From: Hanstruepera ponticola
GTDB taxonomy: Bacteria > Bacteroidota > Bacteroidia > Flavobacteriales > Flavobacteriaceae
Assembly (NCBI RefSeq): GCF_012931685.1
Contig: NZ_JABANC010000002.1
Location: forward strand, 372,001-436,000
Length of the DNA: 64,000 nt
Direction of reading: 5' to 3'
Under the pieces are notes generated by a model. The model saw only the letters and a list, made by a program, of their open reading frames with translations, had not been told where the DNA came from and did not search any database. The position numbers were made by a program, and so were the translations under genes. Below are positions 16,382-26,937 of the stretch, piece by piece; positions within the stretch are counted from its first letter, which is position 1, and each line of letters starts with the position of its first letter.

Positions 16382-19300
16382 ATGACCTTTATTAATAACG
16401 CGTTTAAGTTTGGTTTTGGTTGCTTGACCACAACTTTATTACTCATGGCATTTATGTCATCAAGTTTAGTTGCACAAACCATAAGCTTTGGTTCAACAGG
16501 GCTTCAGAATGAAAATGTTTTAAACCCAACATCTTTAGAATTTGGTCCAGACGATAGATTATATGTTGCTCAACAGAATGGCATCATATGGGCTTATACT
16601 ATAGAACGTGATAATGCTGTAGCTGGTGATGGTACTTATACCGTTATTAACAGCGAAGAAATAACTAATATCCGATTTGGTATTCCCAATCATAATGATG
16701 AAGGCGTTTTCAATCCAAGTCAGCAACGACTCATTACAGGAATCATGACGGCTGGAACCGCCGAAAACCCTGTTTTATATGTAACTTCTTCTGACTATTT
16801 GTTAGGTGGTGGTGCTGGCGGTAATGATACTAATCTAGATACTAATTCCAGTATGTTATCCAGACTCGAAAAAATTAATGGTGTTTGGGAAAAAACCGAT
16901 TTAATTCGTGGATTACCACGCTGTGAAGAAAACCATGCTGTGAATGGATTGGATATGTTTGAACGAAACGGAGACACTTTTTTATTGATTGTTCAAGGAG
17001 GACAAACTAATAAAGGTGCTCCAAGTAACAATTTTGCTGGTACACCAGAATTTTTCTTTTCAGGCTCCATGTTAATTGTGAATTTAACAGATTTGGAGAG
17101 CATGCCAGTTTATACTGACCCAAGAAATGGCAGTAATTATGTATATGACTTACCCACTTTAAATGATCCAACTCGTTTAGATATTGACAATACACATCCT
17201 GAATTCCCTTATCCAGTAGGACATCCCATGTATAATGCGACTATCGATATTGGTGATCCGTTTGGAGGAAATAATAGTTTAAATCAGGCCTTCCCGGAAG
17301 TTGGAGGTCCTATTCAAATTTTTTCTGCAGGATTTAGAAATGCCTATGATGTTGTTATAGCTGAAAATGGGAAAATATATACTTCAGATAATGGTGCCAA
17401 TTCCCTTTGGGGTGGTTTACCTAGAATTTATGATAGCGCTACTGATACGTTTTTAGGTGATGAAAGCACGATGGTCTATGACCCAAATAACCATTATATT
17501 AAAAATGAGCTGAACGAAAATGGTAGTACAATTATTAATGATCCATTACATTACGTAGGGACTATTAATGATGCCAATGAAACATACTATGGCGGACACC
17601 CTATTCCTATATTGGCATTTCCATCAAGAGCTGGAATTTACACCTATGAAAAAGTTGATGGCTCTTGGGTTGCTACAAATTCTTATGATTTAGAAACTTT
17701 AATAAGCGGAACATCTGGTTATTTCAACTCCAGTTTTACCATTACGGACTTTCCCGATCGTCCAGAACTTGGTGAGTTTTTAGCGGATGAACCTATTGCC
17801 AGCCCAAGAAATAATATTCTAGCGCGAGTCAATTCATCTACTAATGGCATTACAGAATATACTGCTTCCAATTTTGGTGGTAACATGCAAGGGAATATCT
17901 TAACTGCATCTTTTAATGGTAATATCAATCGATACGTCCTCAATGCATCTGGAGATGAAGTACTAGAATCTGAAACCACTTTTAATGGTTTTGGTAGTTT
18001 ACCATTGGATGTTACCGCACAAGGTGATGATGATATTTTTCCTGGGACAGTTTGGGCTGCAACTTATGGATCCAATAGTGTAACTATTTTTGAACCTACA
18101 GATATTAATTGTTTGTTGCCAGGCGATGCAGGCTATGATCCAAATGCAGACAATGATGGTGATGGTTACACCAATCAAGATGAAATAGATAACAACACAA
18201 ACCCATGCTCACAAAGTAGTAAACCTAAAGATAATGATGGTGATTTTATTTCTGATTTAAATGATCCCGATGATGATAACGATACTATTTTAGACGTGAA
18301 TGATGTTTTTGCATTAGACCCTAATAATGGTACAACAACTAATTTGCCTATAGATTACCCATTTTGGAATAACGATCCAGGCACAGGCTTCTTTGGACTC
18401 GGTTTTACTGGTCTTATGTTAGACCCAAATGGCACAACAGATTATCTAACACAATTTGACGAAGAAAGCATATCGTTTGGAGGTGCTGCTGGAAAGGCCA
18501 CTGTTGATAATGTAACTGGAGGTGATGCATTTGAAGCACTTAACAATCAAGATTATGGTTTTCAATTTGGTGTAAATGTAGATTCAAACTCAAATCCTTT
18601 TACTGTTCACTCAAAAATTGAATCACCTTACTTTGGTTCAGGTGGCTCACAAAACGCTCCAATAGATTATCAATCTTATGGTGTTCAATTAGGTACTGGT
18701 GACCAAGACAATTATTTGAAATTGGTTTTTATGAATGGGACTTTAAATGCTGATGCTTTAAATGGACTACAAGTAGTTTTAGAAGATAATGGCATCGTTA
18801 CAGTTAACGAAAGCTATAACATTCCTAATATATTAAACTCAAGTGCTATTAATTTATATATTTCTGTTGATCCAGTCAGTAATCTGGCTCAACCATTTTA
18901 TTCTATTGATGATGGGGAAACATTAAATTTATTAGGATCGCCTATTGTTCTACCAACAAGTTTTTTAGATGATTCTGATAACAAAGGATTAGCAATAGGG
19001 CTTATTTCTACTTCAAGGAGTGATACCAGTCCAAATCCCTTTACAGCGACTTGGGATTTTATAGAAGTTTATGAAAATCTTGATGGTGTACTCTCTATCA
19101 ATCCAGCACCATTAAATTTTGGATTGACTCCAGTAAACAATTCACAACGCACAAAATATATTACGCTTAACAATGAGGGTGGGCCTACCGATAGTTCGAT
19201 AACCATAACTGCTTTAAATTTCATTGGAACAAATTCTAATTTATTCTCAAGCGATTTTCAATTACCTTTCAATTTAAGTCCTGGCGCATCTGTTAAAGTT

Positions 19301-20959
19301 CCAGTAGATTTCAGTTCCGACGAAATTTTGGGAGAAAAAACAGCTTCGTTAGAAGTTGTTCACAACGGCACCAACACACCCACAACCATTTCATTAACTG
19401 GAGAATTAACGGATATATATTCACCAGTTGTTAGAATTAATTCAGGTGGTATTATGGTACTTGCTTCAGATGGTGGCCCAGAATGGGAAGCCAACACCTC
19501 AACAACAGGAGATTCATACGTAGTATCTTCTGGATCACCATTTACAATTGACGAAATCATTTATGAAAATCGAGATGTTTCTATTCCAGACTACATAAGT
19601 CAAGCCGAGTATGAAGAGATTATGCGTTCTGAATTAAGCACTAATGACCTCGATTTCCCTGTTACTTATTCAATTAGCCTTCCAAATGGTTCCTATATTG
19701 TAAATCTCTATTTTGCTAACCTTTATAATGGCACATCAGAACCTAATGAACGTATTTTTAACGTCAATATCGAAGACATAAGAGTCATTGAAAAACTGGA
19801 TCCTTCAAAAGAATTTGGACATCGCATAGCAGGTATGATTCAAAATAATATTGAAATCACTGATGGTGTTATGGACATACAGTTTCTATTTGAACTACAG
19901 AATCCAATAATTAATGCTATTGAGGTTTTAGGTATAAGCTATCCGCCTCTCAATATTGAACCTATTGCTGATAGATCAGACTGTGAGCTGGAATTATCTG
20001 ATTTTCAAGCTGAAGGTTCTGGCGGTAATCCAGCAGACAATTTGGTGTATTCCATTAACGGACAGCCTTTGGGTATAGATATTGAGCCTACAAATGGATT
20101 AATATTTGGCGTCATTGATGAAACAGCAGTTACTGGTGGACCAAATAGTGATGGTGTTTATGAAGTGACTATTACAGTAAGCAAACCAGGTAGTTTAGAT
20201 GTTTCCACTAATTTTATTTGGACGGTAATTAATGATATTGAAGCTCCAGAAATAAGCTGTCCAGATGATCTAATTGAAGCTGTATCGGTTGGTACAACTG
20301 AAGCAAACATTACCATTACAGAACCGTTTATTACTGATAATTGTGATAGTGATATTAATATTGAAGCTAGCCGCTCTGATGGCTTGGAACTCACAGATGC
20401 TTTTCCTTTAGGAGATACCACTATAACTTGGATTGCTACGGATGCATCTGGTAACGTATCAGATTCTTGTGAGCAAATAATTACTGTGGAAATCCCTGAA
20501 TACAGTCTTCAACTGAATGTCTCTTTACAAGGGCGAACAGACTATAGTGGTAATTTTGACATACAACTTTTCCATATAAATGATTTAGTAACTCCGTTAT
20601 ATACTTTTACTGAATTTGGAAATGCTTTAGGAGAAATCAGTTTACCATCAACCATTAGTCAAGGCGAATATAAAATTATTGTAAAGCATCCTATGTATTT
20701 ACAGCGTTTAAAAACCATAAACCTAACAGCCAACAGTATTGAAACATTTAATGATGTACTATTAGCAGGTGATGTTAACAATGATAATGTGATCAATATA
20801 TTTGATTTAGGTATTTTCTCTGGCACTTACAATTTGAGTTCTGGAGATTCTGGGTTTGACTCACGAGCTGATTTTGATAATAATGCTACAATCAACATTT
20901 TTGATTTAGGAATTTTTTCTGGAAATTATCAATTGTCAGGAGAGACACAAAATGATTAA
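16382..20959 (+). CDS. Large secreted multidomain protein with C-terminal dockerin-like repeat
   Basis: A 1525-aa exported protein. Signal peptide residues 1-31, cleavage after LVAQ. Order by eye: a beta-propeller-like region (about 45-575, opening SLEFGPDDRLYVAQQNG); calcium-type Asp-rich repeats (about 585-640, NADNDGDGYTNQDE); a lectin-like beta region (about 650-900); an ASPM/HYDIN-like domain (about 905-1015); a malectin-like domain (about 1017-1195, from VVRINSGG); an Ig-like domain; a HYR domain (about 1290-1378); a beta-sandwich; and two dockerin-type loops (from about 1461: GDVNNDNVINIFDLGIFSG and ADFDNNATINIFDLGIFSG). There is no T9SS sorting domain at the end. The next gene overlaps it by 8 nt and encodes a cohesin-like protein that has one. 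No catalytic site was recognised. Confidence 0.85.
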   Translation: MTFINNAFKFGFGCLTTTLLLMAFMSSSLVAQTISFGSTGLQNENVLNPTSLEFGPDDRLYVAQQNGIIWAYTIERDNAVAGDGTYTVINSEEITNIRFGIPNHNDEGVFNPSQQRLITGIMTAGTAENPVLYVTSSDYLLGGGAGGNDTNLDTNSSMLSRLEKINGVWEKTDLIRGLPRCEENHAVNGLDMFERNGDTFLLIVQGGQTNKGAPSNNFAGTPEFFFSGSMLIVNLTDLESMPVYTDPRNGSNYVYDLPTLNDPTRLDIDNTHPEFPYPVGHPMYNATIDIGDPFGGNNSLNQAFPEVGGPIQIFSAGFRNAYDVVIAENGKIYTSDNGANSLWGGLPRIYDSATDTFLGDESTMVYDPNNHYIKNELNENGSTIINDPLHYVGTINDANETYYGGHPIPILAFPSRAGIYTYEKVDGSWVATNSYDLETLISGTSGYFNSSFTITDFPDRPELGEFLADEPIASPRNNILARVNSSTNGITEYTASNFGGNMQGNILTASFNGNINRYVLNASGDEVLESETTFNGFGSLPLDVTAQGDDDIFPGTVWAATYGSNSVTIFEPTDINCLLPGDAGYDPNADNDGDGYTNQDEIDNNTNPCSQSSKPKDNDGDFISDLNDPDDDNDTILDVNDVFALDPNNGTTTNLPIDYPFWNNDPGTGFFGLGFTGLMLDPNGTTDYLTQFDEESISFGGAAGKATVDNVTGGDAFEALNNQDYGFQFGVNVDSNSNPFTVHSKIESPYFGSGGSQNAPIDYQSYGVQLGTGDQDNYLKLVFMNGTLNADALNGLQVVLEDNGIVTVNESYNIPNILNSSAINLYISVDPVSNLAQPFYSIDDGETLNLLGSPIVLPTSFLDDSDNKGLAIGLISTSRSDTSPNPFTATWDFIEVYENLDGVLSINPAPLNFGLTPVNNSQRTKYITLNNEGGPTDSSITITALNFIGTNSNLFSSDFQLPFNLSPGASVKVPVDFSSDEILGEKTASLEVVHNGTNTPTTISLTGELTDIYSPVVRINSGGIMVLASDGGPEWEANTSTTGDSYVVSSGSPFTIDEIIYENRDVSIPDYISQAEYEEIMRSELSTNDLDFPVTYSISLPNGSYIVNLYFANLYNGTSEPNERIFNVNIEDIRVIEKLDPSKEFGHRIAGMIQNNIEITDGVMDIQFLFELQNPIINAIEVLGISYPPLNIEPIADRSDCELELSDFQAEGSGGNPADNLVYSINGQPLGIDIEPTNGLIFGVIDETAVTGGPNSDGVYEVTITVSKPGSLDVSTNFIWTVINDIEAPEISCPDDLIEAVSVGTTEANITITEPFITDNCDSDINIEASRSDGLELTDAFPLGDTTITWIATDASGNVSDSCEQIITVEIPEYSLQLNVSLQGRTDYSGNFDIQLFHINDLVTPLYTFTEFGNALGEISLPSTISQGEYKIIVKHPMYLQRLKTINLTANSIETFNDVLLAGDVNNDNVINIFDLGIFSGTYNLSSGDSGFDSRADFDNNATINIFDLGIFSGNYQLSGETQND

Positions 20960-21725
20960 AAAGAAGACTATGAATTTATTTAATAAGATTATTTCGTTTT
21001 TTACTATTTGCCTTTTGCTTTCGTCTGGGTTTATTTCAGCACAATCTGTTGATTTGATTGCCTCTGCTGATCAAATGCCACCGTTTACTAATGGCCAAAC
21101 ATTTAACTATTCCATTATGTCAACAGGAAGCCCCTACAATGCTTTACGTATAAAATTAGAATACAACCCAAGTGTTATCCAAATTAATAGTCTAACACCT
21201 GTTTATGCTTTTGGCTTTACTCCTGTGAATGATACGAGTACTCCAGGTCTTGTAAAATATGAAGCCGCTAGTCTATCGGGTAACATTACTACTGATGAAG
21301 TTATTTTTAATATTGAATTTGAAGTGCTTGATAACAATCAAGCTATTTCTATTGCTCATAGCTATGATGCTGCCGACGGAACTGTTGTTGTTAATAGCGG
21401 CGGGAATAATATTTTGGGAACAGCTAATGACATACTTTTGGAAACCTTAAGTATCAGCCATAACAATTTTGAGTCGCTCACTATTTATCCTAATCCTGCT
21501 AGTAATCAGATTTCAATAATTAAAAGTGAACCTTCTCAAATTAAAAGCATTACACTATACACGTTAGAGGGTAAGATGATTATGAAACAATCAATTTCCA
21601 ATCAAGATTCAAATAATGAGAATATTATTGTGGATGTATCATCTTTAAAAAACGCCTTATACTTTATGGACGTTATTGATCAAAACGATTATAAAAAAAC
21701 TTTTAAGGTTTTGGTATCTCATTAA
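20952..21725 (+). CDS. Cohesin-like secreted protein with T9SS C-terminal sorting domain
   Basis: A 257-aa exported protein starting within the last codons of the 1525-aa gene (ATGATTAA overlap). A second start at 20970 would also retain the signal peptide, which ends near FISAQ (about residue 30). Residues about 32-150 look like a cohesin-type beta-sandwich: NALRIKLEYNPSVIQI, a VKYEAASLSGN strand and VIFNIEFEVL. Residues about 175-257 are a type A T9SS sorting domain: LTIYPNPASNQISI, then a VDVSSLKNALYFM strand and a final basic FKVLVSH. Such domains direct secretion and surface attachment or release. The overlap and the dockerin partner suggest that the two proteins form a complex. Confidence 0.85.
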   Translation: MIKKKTMNLFNKIISFFTICLLLSSGFISAQSVDLIASADQMPPFTNGQTFNYSIMSTGSPYNALRIKLEYNPSVIQINSLTPVYAFGFTPVNDTSTPGLVKYEAASLSGNITTDEVIFNIEFEVLDNNQAISIAHSYDAADGTVVVNSGGNNILGTANDILLETLSISHNNFESLTIYPNPASNQISIIKSEPSQIKSITLYTLEGKMIMKQSISNQDSNNENIIVDVSSLKNALYFMDVIDQNDYKKTFKVLVSH

Positions 21726-22414
21726 CCCAATTTCAATAATGTATTTGGATCTGGGCAATTATTAGAAAAAAACTCTAAATCGTTTAAACTGCACACGCCT
21801 GGATAATCACCTTTATAAGCTGACATGTCTCTTACAATTTGAAAATGCAAATGTGGTGCGTAGTCTCCATTAACTGTGGCATCACCCAATGTGGCTATAC
21901 ATTCTTGAGCTTTAAAAAATTGACCAACTTTCAAGTCCTTGATTGACTCCAAACTCAAATGACCATACAATGTAAAAAAGTTGATTTCACCCATTTGATG
22001 TTCTAAAATGAGTGTTGGACCATAATCACCATAATTAGTGTTATTAGCAAAACTATGAACTGTTCCGTCCAAGGGTGTGTAAATGTTACTTCCAGCTGAA
22101 GTCCATAAGTCTAATCCTAAATGTATGTTTCTTTCGGAGTCTGGATTATTTTGATTGAAATAAGAACTGCGTTTATATATATTTCGCTTCTCTAAATAGC
22201 CTCCATAAGCCACACTAGCTTGATGGTTTTCGCAATAGCTACGTATATATTGCTCCCATTGGGTTGATGAATTAATATCAAAAGTTTGTAAGTCTTGATT
22301 GGAATCAGATAAGTCTATGAAAACGAATTTATGATGTGGAATACGCTTATCTAAAACAGGTATTGGTTGTGGATTAAGTGAATTTAGAAATGAGGTAAAT
22401 GTAATGGTGTTCAT
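21722..22414 (-). CDS. M23 family metallopeptidase (LytM-like)
   Basis: A 230-aa protein with a LytM/M23 fold at about residues 90-200. The zinc ligands are visible as H and D in NIHLGLDLWT and the H-x-H of PHLHFQIV. Members cleave glycyl bonds in peptidoglycan cross-links or act on other proteins. No clear signal peptide is seen at the start MNTITFTSFLN, so it may be cytoplasmic or use a different start. Its stop codon overlaps the convergent cohesin gene by 4 nt. It lies 29 nt after the repeat-rich protein gene and may be the last gene of the sigma-factor operon. Confidence 0.85.
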   Translation of the reverse strand: MNTITFTSFLNSLNPQPIPVLDKRIPHHKFVFIDLSDSNQDLQTFDINSSTQWEQYIRSYCENHQASVAYGGYLEKRNIYKRSSYFNQNNPDSERNIHLGLDLWTSAGSNIYTPLDGTVHSFANNTNYGDYGPTLILEHQMGEINFFTLYGHLSLESIKDLKVGQFFKAQECIATLGDATVNGDYAPHLHFQIVRDMSAYKGDYPGVCSLNDLEFFSNNCPDPNTLLKLG

Positions 22415-22443: not shown

Positions 22444-23997
22444 CTATTCCATGACTACTTTACTGTACCTAGCATTTATTGCTATGGTTTTATTATTGTT
22501 CAAACTTCCTAATTTAAATGACGACACCGCATTATCATTCTTGTTTTTGGGATGATGTAATCGTGAGTTTTTACCTTGATATTGTAGGTTAAAATCCACT
22601 TTAGGAAGCTTAACAGCCGCATTACTATTATCAAGTGTTATATTAATATTATTGAAGTCTTGAGCTATATTATGAATAACTAAATCTCCAAAACTACCTG
22701 TTAAAATAGCATTACCAGCTAGTCTGTCTATACCAATATTTGAAGAATTGGAATTTAACACCAAGCCATTGACATCTTGTAAAATAGCATTTTCAACAAA
22801 ATTTAACTTAAGAGTGCCTAATTCCCAACTTTTAATCAAAACAGAGCCATAAGAAGCATTGATGGAGGTTTTTTCTCCATCAATGCTGTTAGCTAAAAAA
22901 GTGGCATGATTCAAATCAGCCTTCACGTTGTTGATTAATGACGATACTTTCAATTCACCATGCCTCACGTTTAAATTCAATTTTGCTTTTTTAGGGATTT
23001 TTATTTTTATAACCTTTTTAATATTTAAATTTTTGGATGATCGAGATTCAAATAATGTACGATAGGCCTCTTCATTCTCTTTAGAACGCTCCTCACGAAT
23101 ACCGGCTTGTTCTTCCCAAACTTTTGCTTGCTCTTCCCAAACCTTTGCTTGCTCCTCCATTTGCTTGCCAAATTCTTCACCCCATTTCTCCATACTTTTC
23201 CCAAACTCTTCACCAAATTCTTCGCCCCATTTCTCCATGCTCTTACCAAATTTTTCTCCGAATTCATCACCCCATTTCTCCATATCTTTTTCGAATTTAG
23301 CACCGAACTTTTCACCAAACTTCTCGCCCCAAGCTTCCATATCCTTTTCATATTTAGCTAGTGCTTCAGAATCCACTTCTTTAGCCCACTTTTCCATTTT
23401 TTTAGCATAGGCTTCTCCATATTTATCGCCATACTCTCTACTCCATTTTTCCATATAAGCTTCACCTTCTTCTTGGTAGCGCTCATAATCAAAATTGATA
23501 TTACTCATACCATCAGGAAGATCTGGTAAATCAGGCATCTTTGGCATTTTCGGCATTTTTGGCATATTGGCTAAATCCATAGACTCCAATAAGCCTTCAA
23601 CCATAGGCATAACTGGAATATTAGCCAGTTCAACTTCAAGGTCCTGAAGCGCATCCAATGATTGTAATTCGAAAAGACTAGAATTATCAGACCACGACAA
23701 ACCTCCTAAATCAGAGGAAATAATCACTCTATCTTTTGAGGCATCAACATCTATCTTCCAGTTTTCTAAATGTTTTTGCAACTCCTCCTTACTCAATACA
23801 CTACTTTCAATGTAGGCTTCAACCTCAATAATGTCTTTGTTCCAAGTATCTATTTCAATATTGGTATAACTGGTATTTAAATCAATCTTTACATTATCAT
23901 TGACATTGATAGATTGTGAAACTTTATCCAACTTTTGCTGTGCTGAAACACTCAAGCAAAAGCATAAAAGCAACGTTACTATATATATTTTTTTCAT
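22444..23997 (-). CDS. Secreted repeat-rich protein with C-terminal DUF4097-like beta domain
   Basis: A 517-aa exported protein: signal peptide MKKIYIVTLLLCFCLSVSAQ; a beta-rich region (about 30-95); a proline-methionine stretch (PKMPKMPKMPDLPDLPDG, about 148-165); and about 140 residues of charged repeats built on MEKWGEEFGKS-like units (nt about 23050-23460). These pass into EEQAKVWEEQAKVWEEQ, probably amphipathic helix. Residues about 325-517 are short beta repeats (LNLNVRHGELKVSS...), like DUF4097 adhesin-type folds. It is the third gene of an operon behind an ECF sigma factor and its anti-sigma factor, so it may be part of an envelope-stress response. Function unknown. Confidence 0.8.
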   Translation of the reverse strand: MKKIYIVTLLLCFCLSVSAQQKLDKVSQSINVNDNVKIDLNTSYTNIEIDTWNKDIIEVEAYIESSVLSKEELQKHLENWKIDVDASKDRVIISSDLGGLSWSDNSSLFELQSLDALQDLEVELANIPVMPMVEGLLESMDLANMPKMPKMPKMPDLPDLPDGMSNINFDYERYQEEGEAYMEKWSREYGDKYGEAYAKKMEKWAKEVDSEALAKYEKDMEAWGEKFGEKFGAKFEKDMEKWGDEFGEKFGKSMEKWGEEFGEEFGKSMEKWGEEFGKQMEEQAKVWEEQAKVWEEQAGIREERSKENEEAYRTLFESRSSKNLNIKKVIKIKIPKKAKLNLNVRHGELKVSSLINNVKADLNHATFLANSIDGEKTSINASYGSVLIKSWELGTLKLNFVENAILQDVNGLVLNSNSSNIGIDRLAGNAILTGSFGDLVIHNIAQDFNNINITLDNSNAAVKLPKVDFNLQYQGKNSRLHHPKNKNDNAVSSFKLGSLNNNKTIAINARYSKVVME

Positions 23998-24009
23998 TTT
24001 TAAATTAAT

Positions 24010-24594
24010 TTAAGCTGTTGTTCGTTTTTGATTTGATTGTGAATTACTCAATGTTTTTAATTGTTCTTTTAGACGATACATAAGATTTAAACGCAACTTT
24101 AAATTGGTAATCAATGCATTAACTGTTAGTTCATTAGGACCTGAATTAGTAAGTTCAACTGAAAGTTTTTTATATTCTTTGTTAAGTTCCCCCAACTGAT
24201 TTAGATAACCATCAATAAGCTCTTTGTTCTCAGGTGTTAGCTTCACTTTTGACAATTCTAAATTGATATTTGCCAAATAATAGTCTTCCACTTTTTTAAG
24301 ATCTGGTGAAATGTCACCCAAGGATTTCATTGTGGCTTCTTGAGTATTGGCATCAACTACTTTTGGTTCAATAACATTAGGGCCGTCTATTTTAAAATAG
24401 TTATAGGCACCATAACCTAAACCTAAAGCTATAACTACACTGGCAGCAATACGTAACCAAGACCAAGATTTCAATTTTTCTTCTGGGAATTGTTCATCCA
24501 GTTTTTTAAGAAAACGTGCCTCATGACCTTCTTGCATTTTAGTATGCACTGGTGTTTTATCGTTTTTAATTACATCTCTAATATCTTGTGCCAT
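24010..24594 (-). CDS. Anti-sigma factor (single-pass membrane protein)
   Basis: A 194-aa protein with a short cytoplasmic N-terminal part (MAQDIRDVIKNDK...), one transmembrane helix at about residues 47-66 (WLRIAASVVIALGLGYGAY) and a periplasmic helical region with L-rich heptads. No zinc-finger HxxxCxxC motif is visible. Its gene overlaps the end of the sigma factor gene by 17 nt, the usual arrangement for a sigma/anti-sigma pair. Function is inferred from that linkage and the topology. Confidence 0.75.
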   Translation of the reverse strand: MAQDIRDVIKNDKTPVHTKMQEGHEARFLKKLDEQFPEEKLKSWSWLRIAASVVIALGLGYGAYNYFKIDGPNVIEPKVVDANTQEATMKSLGDISPDLKKVEDYYLANINLELSKVKLTPENKELIDGYLNQLGELNKEYKKLSVELTNSGPNELTVNALITNLKLRLNLMYRLKEQLKTLSNSQSNQKRTTA

Positions 24595-25129
24595 CCTTTA
24601 TGTGTTTTAACAGTTCTTGCAATTTTAATTTTCCTCTGTAAAGCTGTGTTCTTGAAGCAACTTCAGTAATATCTAGTATTTCAGATATCTCCTGATGATC
24701 ATAACCTTCTATCAGGTAAAGCATCACAACATATCTATACTTTTCAGATAATGAATTGATGGCTTCTTTTATTTCTTCAATAGTCACAGCATCGTCAACC
24801 AACCATTTGTCATCATCACTAGTATCAACCACTTTCAGGTGCACCTCCTCCAATTCAACCAGACGTTGTTTATTGGCTTTAAGCGTGTCAATACTGGTGT
24901 TTATAACAATACGTTTTAACCAAGCCCCAAAAGTAACTTCAGCATGATATTGATGTAGTTTTGTGAATGCCTTAATGAAGGCATCCTGAACAACATCTTC
25001 AGCTTGAGCATCATTCTTAATAAATCGTTTGGCAACTATATACATACCATTGCAGTACTGGCTGTATAACTGCATTTGTGCTTTACGATCATTTGCTTTG
25101 CATTTTTCAATGATATCAGTCTGAAACAT
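24578..25129 (-). CDS. RNA polymerase sigma factor, ECF subfamily
   Basis: A 183-aa ECF sigma-70 factor. Region 2 includes the core-binding helix and the -10 recognition stretch AEDVVQDAFIKAFTKLHQYH followed by FGAWLKRIVINTSID. Region 4 is a helix-turn-helix with YRYVVMLYLIEGYDHQEISE and LDITEVASRTQLYRGK. The downstream overlapping gene encodes its probable anti-sigma factor. An upstream TGCAACATT/CGTCTTT pair (25161-25192) suggests autoregulation. Confidence 0.95.
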   Translation of the reverse strand: MFQTDIIEKCKANDRKAQMQLYSQYCNGMYIVAKRFIKNDAQAEDVVQDAFIKAFTKLHQYHAEVTFGAWLKRIVINTSIDTLKANKQRLVELEEVHLKVVDTSDDDKWLVDDAVTIEEIKEAINSLSEKYRYVVMLYLIEGYDHQEISEILDITEVASRTQLYRGKLKLQELLKHIKDGTRY

Positions 25130-25160
25130 GCTTTACTTTTTGGTTTTTTGATTAGTTCAT

Positions 25161-25192
25161 CTTAAAGACGACATAAAAATATGAATGTTGCA
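25161..25192 (-). promoter_or_regulatory. Candidate autoregulated ECF promoter
   Basis: On the minus strand: TGCAACATT, a short spacer, CGTCTTTAAG, ending 31 nt before the sigma gene ATG. The AAC core at -35 and CGTC at -10 with about 16 nt between them is the general ECF promoter pattern. It is clearly different from the TAnnTTTG boxes elsewhere in the window. Confidence 0.5.
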
Positions 25193-25289: not shown

Positions 25290-25856
25290 ATGAATAAACT
25301 ATTTAAATGGTTTTTTGGTTTTTTATTAATCGTTGCTATTGGTCTTTTTTGTTACTCATATTTTATAGATGATAGCTTATTAGTCCCTCGCAAAAGTCCG
25401 ATTGATACTGTGACACTAGTAGAAAATGACTTACAGCTTGATGTGGTTTATAATAGACCATCAAAACGTGGCAGGGAAATTTTTGGTGGTTTAGTTCCGT
25501 ATAAAGAAGTATGGCGAACAGGTGCCAATGAGGCGACTACGTTTAAAACAAACAAGCCCTTAAAAATAAATAACGATTCACTTCCAGCAGGAAAATACAC
25601 GTTATGGACCATTCCAAATGATTCCACATGGCAAATTATGTTTAACACAAAACAATATGCTTGGGGAGTAGATAAAGAAATGAAACCTATGCGCGAACCT
25701 GAATTTGATATTATTAGTTTGGCTGTACCTGTGCAACATATTAATAAAACTGTTGAACAGTTTACCATAGGATTTGATAACACGTTAGACGCCATTGCAT
25801 TAACAATGGCATGGGACAAAACCAAAATTGAGGTACCTATAGAAACTTTTGACTAA
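25290..25856 (+). CDS. DUF2911 domain protein, membrane-anchored
   Basis: A 188-aa protein with one N-terminal transmembrane helix (about 6-25) and a periplasmic DUF2911 domain. The domain has the conserved stretches GREIFGGLVPYKEVWRTGAN (about 61-80) and AGKYTLWTIP (about 99-108). Function unknown. Its stop overlaps the TTG start of the MeaB gene, suggesting coupling, though a metabolic link is not evident. Confidence 0.87.
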   Translation: MNKLFKWFFGFLLIVAIGLFCYSYFIDDSLLVPRKSPIDTVTLVENDLQLDVVYNRPSKRGREIFGGLVPYKEVWRTGANEATTFKTNKPLKINNDSLPAGKYTLWTIPNDSTWQIMFNTKQYAWGVDKEMKPMREPEFDIISLAVPVQHINKTVEQFTIGFDNTLDAIALTMAWDKTKIEVPIETFD

Positions 25857-26937
25857 AAAAAAACCACATATTTCTGCTTTAAGTGAGCAACATGGTGTTT
25901 CTGATTCAGAAATCACCAACGAAGCTGCTTTAGACAAATTAAAATTGAAACGGCAAAAACAGCCGTCTGTTGTTGAATTAGTACAAGAAATTTTAAAAGG
26001 AAATATTTCATCTTTAAGTCGTGCTATTACACTTATTGAGAGTAAAAATCCAAGCCATTATAAAACTGCCAGTGACATAATTAAAGCCTGCCTCCCTTAT
26101 GCCAATAAGTCAATTCGCGTAGGGATAACAGGAGTTCCTGGTGTAGGAAAAAGCACATTCATTGAGAGTTTTGGAAAATATCTTTCTCAAAAAGGAAATA
26201 AAATTGCGGTTTTGGCTATTGACCCAAGTAGTTCTATTTCCAAAGGAAGCATTCTAGGTGACAAAACCCGTATGGAAGATTTGGTAAAAGACAACAATGT
26301 TTTTATCAGACCATCCCCTTCTGGCGACACGTTGGGAGGTGTAGCTAGAAAAACTCGTGAAACCATCATATTATGTGAAGCAGCAGGTTTTGACACCATT
26401 ATTATTGAAACCGTTGGTGTTGGTCAAAGCGAAACTGCGGTGAATGACATGGTTGATTTCTTTTTACTCTTAAAATTGGCAGGTGCTGGTGATGAGTTGC
26501 AAGGTATAAAACGTGGTATTATTGAAATGGCAGATCTTATCGCAATAAACAAAGCAGATGGCTCCAATTTAAAAGCTTCTAAATTAGCTAAAGTGGAATT
26601 TAATAGAGCACTCCATCTTTACCCTAAAAAGGAATCTGAATGGCAACCAAAAGTATTATTATGTAGTGCCTTGAAAAATGATGGAATTGACAGTATTTGG
26701 AATGCTATTTCTGATTACCTAACTCTAACTAAAGCAAATAATTATTTTTCCAAAAGACGTCAAGATCAAAATAAGTTCTGGCTATTGCAAAGTATCAAAG
26801 ATAAGCTCCATACTGACTTTTTTGAAAATACTGTTATAAAAAAAGCATTAAAAGAGCAGTTACTTTTAATTGAAAAAAACCAAACAACACCTTTTGCAGC
26901 AGCAAACTACTTGCTGAACTTAAAAAAGGAATTATAG
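25849..26937 (+). CDS. meaB: Methylmalonyl-CoA mutase-associated GTPase MeaB
   Basis: A 362-aa G3E-family GTPase that gates cofactor loading and protects B12-dependent methylmalonyl-CoA mutase. Visible motifs are Walker A GVPGVGKST (about residues 92-100), the D of AIDPSSS in switch I, the G-domain ETVGVGQSE, and the guanine-specificity motif NKAD. The start is TTG at 25849 overlapping the upstream stop (TTTGACTAA). The C-terminus ends in a helical dimerisation arm. The mutase subunits are not in this window. A PduO-type adenosyltransferase at 11703-12275 serves the same pathway. Confidence 0.95.
   Translation: MTKKKPHISALSEQHGVSDSEITNEAALDKLKLKRQKQPSVVELVQEILKGNISSLSRAITLIESKNPSHYKTASDIIKACLPYANKSIRVGITGVPGVGKSTFIESFGKYLSQKGNKIAVLAIDPSSSISKGSILGDKTRMEDLVKDNNVFIRPSPSGDTLGGVARKTRETIILCEAAGFDTIIIETVGVGQSETAVNDMVDFFLLLKLAGAGDELQGIKRGIIEMADLIAINKADGSNLKASKLAKVEFNRALHLYPKKESEWQPKVLLCSALKNDGIDSIWNAISDYLTLTKANNYFSKRRQDQNKFWLLQSIKDKLHTDFFENTVIKKALKEQLLLIEKNQTTPFAAANYLLNLKKEL

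Follow-up and report, generated by a model that had tools for sequence, protein, structure and literature searches.

The window, a stretch of 64,000 nucleotides from Hanstruepera ponticola, contains an operon on the minus strand (positions 22444-25129) that codes for a sigma factor, an anti-sigma factor and an exported protein. The start of the anti-sigma gene overlaps the sigma gene by 17 bp, and the third gene begins 12 bases after the anti-sigma gene. Of 111 loci, 108 have the order sigma factor, single-pass protein and third gene, and the other three lie at contig edges. The same order is also present in all of the 40 further loci (L197 counted) that were picked by hand, mainly for their distance. 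This is a conserved three-gene operon of marine flavobacteria, of the stress-control type. Coordinates of the individual features are collected in Table 1.

Table 1. Features of the sigma/anti-sigma operon and of its third protein, with window coordinates
Feature	Position	Strand	Basis
ECF-type promoter TGCAAC-N16-CGTCTTTA	25163..25192	(-)	-35 at 25187-25192; -10 CGTC at 25167-25170
ECF sigma factor, 183 aa (P0003)	24578..25129	(-)	Pfam; phmmer against PDB
Probable anti-sigma factor, 194 aa (P0002)	24010..24594	(-)	position, topology
Third gene, 517 aa exported protein (P0001)	22444..23997	(-)	sequence; homologues adjoin sigma and anti-sigma genes
Signal peptide, residues 1-19, ends AQ, cleavage before Q20	23941..23997	(-)	sequence
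First strands of predicted beta-helix, residues 20-100	23698..23940	(-)	AlphaFold2 (pLDDT mostly >93); hhalign to paralogue
Proline-every-third-residue run, residues 145-163	23509..23565	(-)	sequence, AlphaFold2
W/F/Y-Gly helical repeats, residues ~169-285	23143..23493	(-)	aromatic period, AlphaFold2 helices
C-terminal part of helix, residues 286-319, less conserved, period ~3.6	23041..23142	(-)	conservation, AlphaFold2
Remainder of predicted right-handed beta-helix, residues 326-517	22447..23022	(-)	AlphaFold2 (pLDDT mostly 96-98)
Gene for an M23-type peptidase, possibly fourth in the transcript	21722..22414	(-)	name from reading the sequence

The best 80 of the 133 relatives found were retained. 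A homologue of the M23-type peptidase, whose gene directly follows the third gene and lacks an obvious signal peptide, occurs in 52 of 80 named loci, mostly directly downstream and on the same strand. Divergent from the operon (25290-26937, plus strand) lie a DUF2911-like gene and a gene for a MeaB-like GTPase, both named by eye. Homologues of this pair stand beside the operon in 69 of 80 named loci. Elsewhere in the window, positions 16382-20959 (plus strand) code for an exported protein of 1525 residues, the C-terminal repeats of which look dockerin-like by eye, and the product of the gene that follows may carry a type IX sorting end, likewise judged by eye.

The first gene codes for an ECF sigma factor: its matches to regions 2 and 4 of sigma-70 both lie above the curated Pfam cut-offs (Sigma70_r2 with 51.1 bits, cut-off 24; Sigma70_r4_2 with 53.9 bits, cut-off 25.7), and phmmer matches the protein to the ECF sigma factors SigH, SigW and RpoE in the PDB (best E-value 1.3e-15). 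For the product of the second gene, profile searches returned no family match. Its layout comprises a short cytoplasmic N-terminus, one transmembrane segment (residues ~46-66) and a helical periplasmic part (~92-179), which is strongly conserved and accounts for most of the conserved columns of the protein. Hydropathy analysis detects one transmembrane segment in 140 of 147 homologues. The window protein is one of the seven below the threshold, and its segment 46-66 still aligns with the transmembrane segments of the homologues. Because of its place beside the sigma gene and its single-pass topology, we consider P0002 a probable anti-sigma factor. The motif HxxxCxxC of zinc-containing anti-sigma factors (ZAS) is found in none of the 147 homologues. 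The initial annotation, which had described an ECF sigma/anti-sigma operon, is supported.

The same annotation had pointed to an ECF-specific-looking promoter, and this proposal also held up. The promoter pair in the window, at 25192..25164, reads TGCAAC-N16-CGTCTTT. Of 138 distinct homologous sigma genes, 116 are preceded by the strict form, TGCAAC-N16-CGTC, which occurs in none of 2760 shuffled upstream regions. Relaxing the third and fourth base adds 20 genes (136 of 138), so that the motif is absent, even in the relaxed form, from only two (L102 and L194). Spacings other than 16, in the range of 10 to 22, yield at most two strict matches each. L002, L099, L108 and L197 had been excluded from the 138-gene count beforehand, as were copies with identical upstream regions and those with fewer than 80 bases upstream. 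No promoter motif was found for L002, a paralogue, or for L197, the divergent second operon copy of a single genome (G082:C23). The promoter consensus is TTTTTTGCAACAct..aattTTTgt.TCGTCTTTA. A CGT-box class of ECF promoters, including that of one sigma/anti-sigma operon, is described for Flavobacterium psychrophilum (PMC9723704). From the conservation of the motif we infer that the sigma factor reads its own TGCAAC-N16-CGTC promoter.

How far the regulon may extend beyond the operon was judged from the rarity of this promoter. Within 120 genomes of the family, the exact extended pattern has 55 matches spread over 50 genomes. Forty-five of them belong to this operon (assigned to known loci by eye) and ten lie elsewhere, none beside a homologue according to tblastn; the same pattern read backwards, as a control, has nine matches. 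Nearly the same letters with a spacing one base longer occur in none of the 120 genomes. The sole exact copy in the genome of H. ponticola is that of this operon. Four other sites there carry one or two mismatches, and the control also gives four. Three of the four read TGTAAC with CGTC, which leaves room for other ECF promoters or weak targets. Many near-matches of the form TGTAAC-N16-CGTC are present in this genome (e.g. G000:C8:152224, C6:178001 and C6:1277434), and these are possibly sites of a different ECF sigma factor. Such weaker promoters mean that the regulon is possibly wider than the exact matches show. At high stringency, we read the operon as the only clear target of the promoter. 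Since there is no other clear target, the circuit most likely has the third protein as its output. The initial annotation had suggested that it may be the main output of the stress response; support for this is indirect, in that exact promoter copies outside the operon are at the level of chance (10 compared with 9 in the control, over 120 genomes).

The third protein has a signal peptide; Q20, the residue that would follow cleavage, is invariant across 117 relatives, and no lipobox was seen by eye. These relatives form the protein alignment (A1), in which 117 of 149 proteins remain once near-identical ones and L164, whose frame is truncated, are taken out. AlphaFold2 run on the alignment gave a model with a mean pLDDT of 84.6. 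In this model residues 20-100 and 326-517 make up a single beta-helix (pLDDT mostly 93-98), while residues 104-140 are poorly predicted. VIA-align places the beta part closest to 3lyc and 3jx8 (Z 17.8 for both) and to 4opw (Z 17.4, rmsd 3.2 over 216), and 4qrk is also matched (Z 12.8, rmsd 2.5 over 156); Foldseek returned no match at E <= 0.001 for the third-protein model. The predicted fold is thus the right-handed beta-helix of Toastrack (4QRK/4OPW). The Pfam models DUF4097, DUF2154 and DUF2807 match neither the window protein (E <= 10) nor eight relatives (E <= 0.1), and we therefore assign the protein to Toastrack by fold only. The DUF4097-like beta domain proposed initially stands accordingly as a matter of fold, while sequence profiles do not call DUF4097. 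DUF2884 (YggN) was rejected with scores of 21.6 and 22.5 bits, below the gathering score of 30.6, and E. coli YggN lacks the W/F/G repeats by eye. A survey of Toastrack unites beta-helix proteins of this kind as domains of phage-shock and Lia systems, names both 4QRK and 4OPW and mentions a sigma factor that is linked in an operon (PMC11237479). Toastrack domains are proposed there to be intracellular, whereas the third protein here has a signal peptide.

The beta-helix is split by an insert of ~220 residues, which holds a PxxPxxP run and, after it, a long W/F/Y-Gly helix. The run and the beta domain of the initial annotation both exist; rather than merely coming after the repeats, as stated there, the domain has them inserted within it. 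In a second operon of the same genome (L273:2889-5840 in G000:C9, adjoining a lon-like gene), an exported beta protein likewise comes third, after a sigma factor and an anti-sigma factor. The first strands of this third protein are homologous to those of the window protein (hhalign, E-value 3e-10). In contrast to the latter, it is 364 residues long, lacks the insert and is followed by a DUF2807 protein. The promoter TG[CT]AAC-N15-17-CGT was not found at this paralogous operon. In a set of 247 genomes of the phylum, matches spanning the insert occur in 9 of the 27 genomes from the family of the window and in none of the 220 others; within the family, the well-sampled genus g128 has none in 14. 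Outside the family, matches usually end near profile position 109 and restart near 312, with partial matches reaching position 186 in G362 and covering only 220-281 in G372. As insert-spanning matches are confined to the family in this set, the insert is an addition made at the level of the family to a protein that occurs across the phylum. A fold search with the insert alone gave no useful match, which argues neither for nor against novelty.

The helical repeats consist of units of 11, 15 and 19 residues, each with MExW and one to three GxxF steps. AlphaFold2 predicts helices at residues 171-177, 179-207 and 210-319. When residues 98-328 were modelled alone, the same pattern emerged, with most of the helix at a pLDDT of 83-96; residues 286-319, at 53-62 in the whole model, scored higher in this insert-only model. 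The aromatic residues of the window protein recur with a period of 3.79, a value reached by none of 5000 shuffles, and the period lies between 3.70 and 3.95 in all 117 relatives. With a wider hydrophobic set, 107 of the 117 stay in this range and 10 have periods of 3.6-3.7. The charged W/F/G repeats reported at the outset are therefore periodic beyond expectation from shuffling, and the region is conserved, F169, Y181 and W204 being identical in 117 of 117 relatives, and is predicted to be helical, not disordered. Directly before the helix runs a P-x-x series (P146-P161), non-helical across residues 145-163 in the model (pLDDT ~72-88). Across the family the prolines have a period of 3.02, and P155 and P158 are conserved in at least 90% of the proteins. 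Examined as a test for a hairpin of run and helix, the length of the proline run correlates with that of the helix (Spearman 0.49 for 102 proteins, 0.38 for the 87 with runs). We do not lean on this correlation because the proteins share ancestry and almost no proline run is present in 15 of the 102. The run and the helix may form a hairpin. A proline run adjoining a long alpha-helix is also found in the A3VP1 stalk of antigen I/II (3iox), in which the two intertwine, with Pro-aromatic contacts among the stabilisers (PMC3707005). The stalk differs from the window protein in order, length and function.

What the insert does may be viewed in several ways. The initial annotation had a membrane-binding amphipathic helix in mind, and an apolipoprotein-like helix that coats or shields membranes would fit some of the search results: the insert profile finds apolipoprotein A-IV in the PDB (E-value 3.3e-7 for the whole sequence, with no single stretch passing) and KMP-11 (E-value 0.02), and one distant relative reaches 19.3 bits with the Pfam Apolipoprotein model, whose cut-off is 90. 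These matches, however, possibly reflect a shared E/K-rich composition, and the hydrophobic period of the insert is 3.78, compared with 3.65-3.67 in three apolipoprotein stretches, and so departs from the 11/3 (3.67) repeat. Glycine after the aromatic residues, moreover, suggests helix packing. Right-handed supercoils have 15/4 and 19/5 repeats. A stripe with a period of ~3.8, as seen in all 117 relatives, spirals around the alpha-helix in the right-handed supercoil sense, and packing on helices, on other copies or on the proline run fits such a spiral better than lying flat does. Judged from this periodicity, the flat membrane-binding helix is probably wrong, a right-handed packing helix fits better, and we consider an apolipoprotein-like role unlikely. 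Still more improbable, to a high degree, is that the methionine-rich run and the helix serve as a sacrificial scavenger of oxidants, the type represented by MrpX, a sigma-controlled Met-rich protein. Both the run and the repeats of the window protein are rich in methionine, but the residue preceding proline in the relatives is M in 400 cases, L in 332 and I in 112. Methionine is thus freely swapped while three aromatic residues are invariant, and this reading was rejected since methionine is not conserved among the relatives.

Another possibility concerns the protein as a whole. It might be mainly a regulator, which, like RseB, binds the periplasmic part of the anti-sigma factor and sets its stability, the real outputs then being genes with weaker promoters. 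The gene order is that of rpoE-rseA-rseB, the insert-bearing third gene was never found apart from the sigma and anti-sigma genes in the loci counted above, and the periplasmic columns of the anti-sigma factor are highly conserved. The near-matching TGTAAC sites in the H. ponticola genome would supply such outputs. Against this, no other strong promoter target was found in the 120 genomes, and the predicted beta-helix is unlike the fold of RseB. On balance we regard an RseB-like role as possible but on the unlikely side.

By analogy, the third protein would likeliest be the dedicated product of the sigma factor in an envelope-stress module of the Lia/LiaX kind. LiaX of enterococci likewise combines a helical part with a Toastrack-type beta part; it is described as a sensor of peptide antibiotics with feedback on its own regulator (PMC10269926). 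Unlike in the window protein, the helical part of LiaX is N-terminal rather than inserted, and LiaX works with a two-component system instead of an ECF pair. The LiaX profile (NCBIfam NF038025, cut-off 350 bits) is touched weakly by two distant relatives (17.5 bits for L158, the best score, and 15.0 bits) and does not match the window protein at E <= 1. The Toastrack (DUF4097/DUF2154/DUF2807) proteins of PSP/Lia modules share with it the right-handed beta-helix and the linkage to a transcription regulator. In contrast to them, the window protein is exported, has no profile match and carries the ~220-residue insert of proline run and helix, and the regulator here is an ECF sigma/anti-sigma pair.

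We give about an even chance to a closed, self-targeted envelope-stress circuit with the third protein as its output and with LiaX-like feedback. Given the conservation and rarity of the promoter, the sigma factor would read one strong promoter, its own, and its release from the membrane anti-sigma factor would make sigma factor, anti-sigma factor and third protein rise together. The third protein, as predicted from sequence and model, would be exported as a Toastrack/GIN-type beta-helix with a long inserted arm. If LiaX is a guide, the beta-helix might contact the anti-sigma factor at its conserved periplasmic part, and the helical arm might bind a stressed component or pack with other copies. 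The third protein would then probably be both a product of the switch and a part of its working.

A more elaborate version, which we find doubtful, makes the third protein sensor and effector at once, a split counterpart of Dma, with the beta-helix seated on the anti-sigma factor at the inner membrane and the arm crossing the periplasmic space, where it would act as a strut or gauge. Dma anti-sigma factors belong to sigma switches of Bacteroidota with long periplasmic elements; as described, the operon that they chiefly regulate is their own, and sugar-use loci are regulated as well (PMC13088901). As described, Dma joins tether and C-terminal beta-barrel in one chain, whereas here the long element sits on a separate exported protein. 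If the strut version were true, the arm would consist of a hairpin of proline run and alpha-helix continued by a right-handed aromatic-glycine helix of ~150 residues (~20 nm if straight), and the aromatic-glycine helix with its 15/4 and 19/5 steps would add a new class to the right-handed packing helices.

A search of titles and abstracts, mostly outside subscription journals, found no publication on this operon, which is conserved, real and under-described. The regulons of many ECF sigma factors from non-model organisms are unknown. In the present case, the strong conservation and the rarity of the promoter make the regulon look like a single operon, which points to one uncharacterised protein. 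This protein combines a beta-helix of stress systems with a helix whose 3.8-residue repeat differs from those of lipid-binding helices, and it is a clear target for studies of structure and function in a family of abundant marine bacteria.
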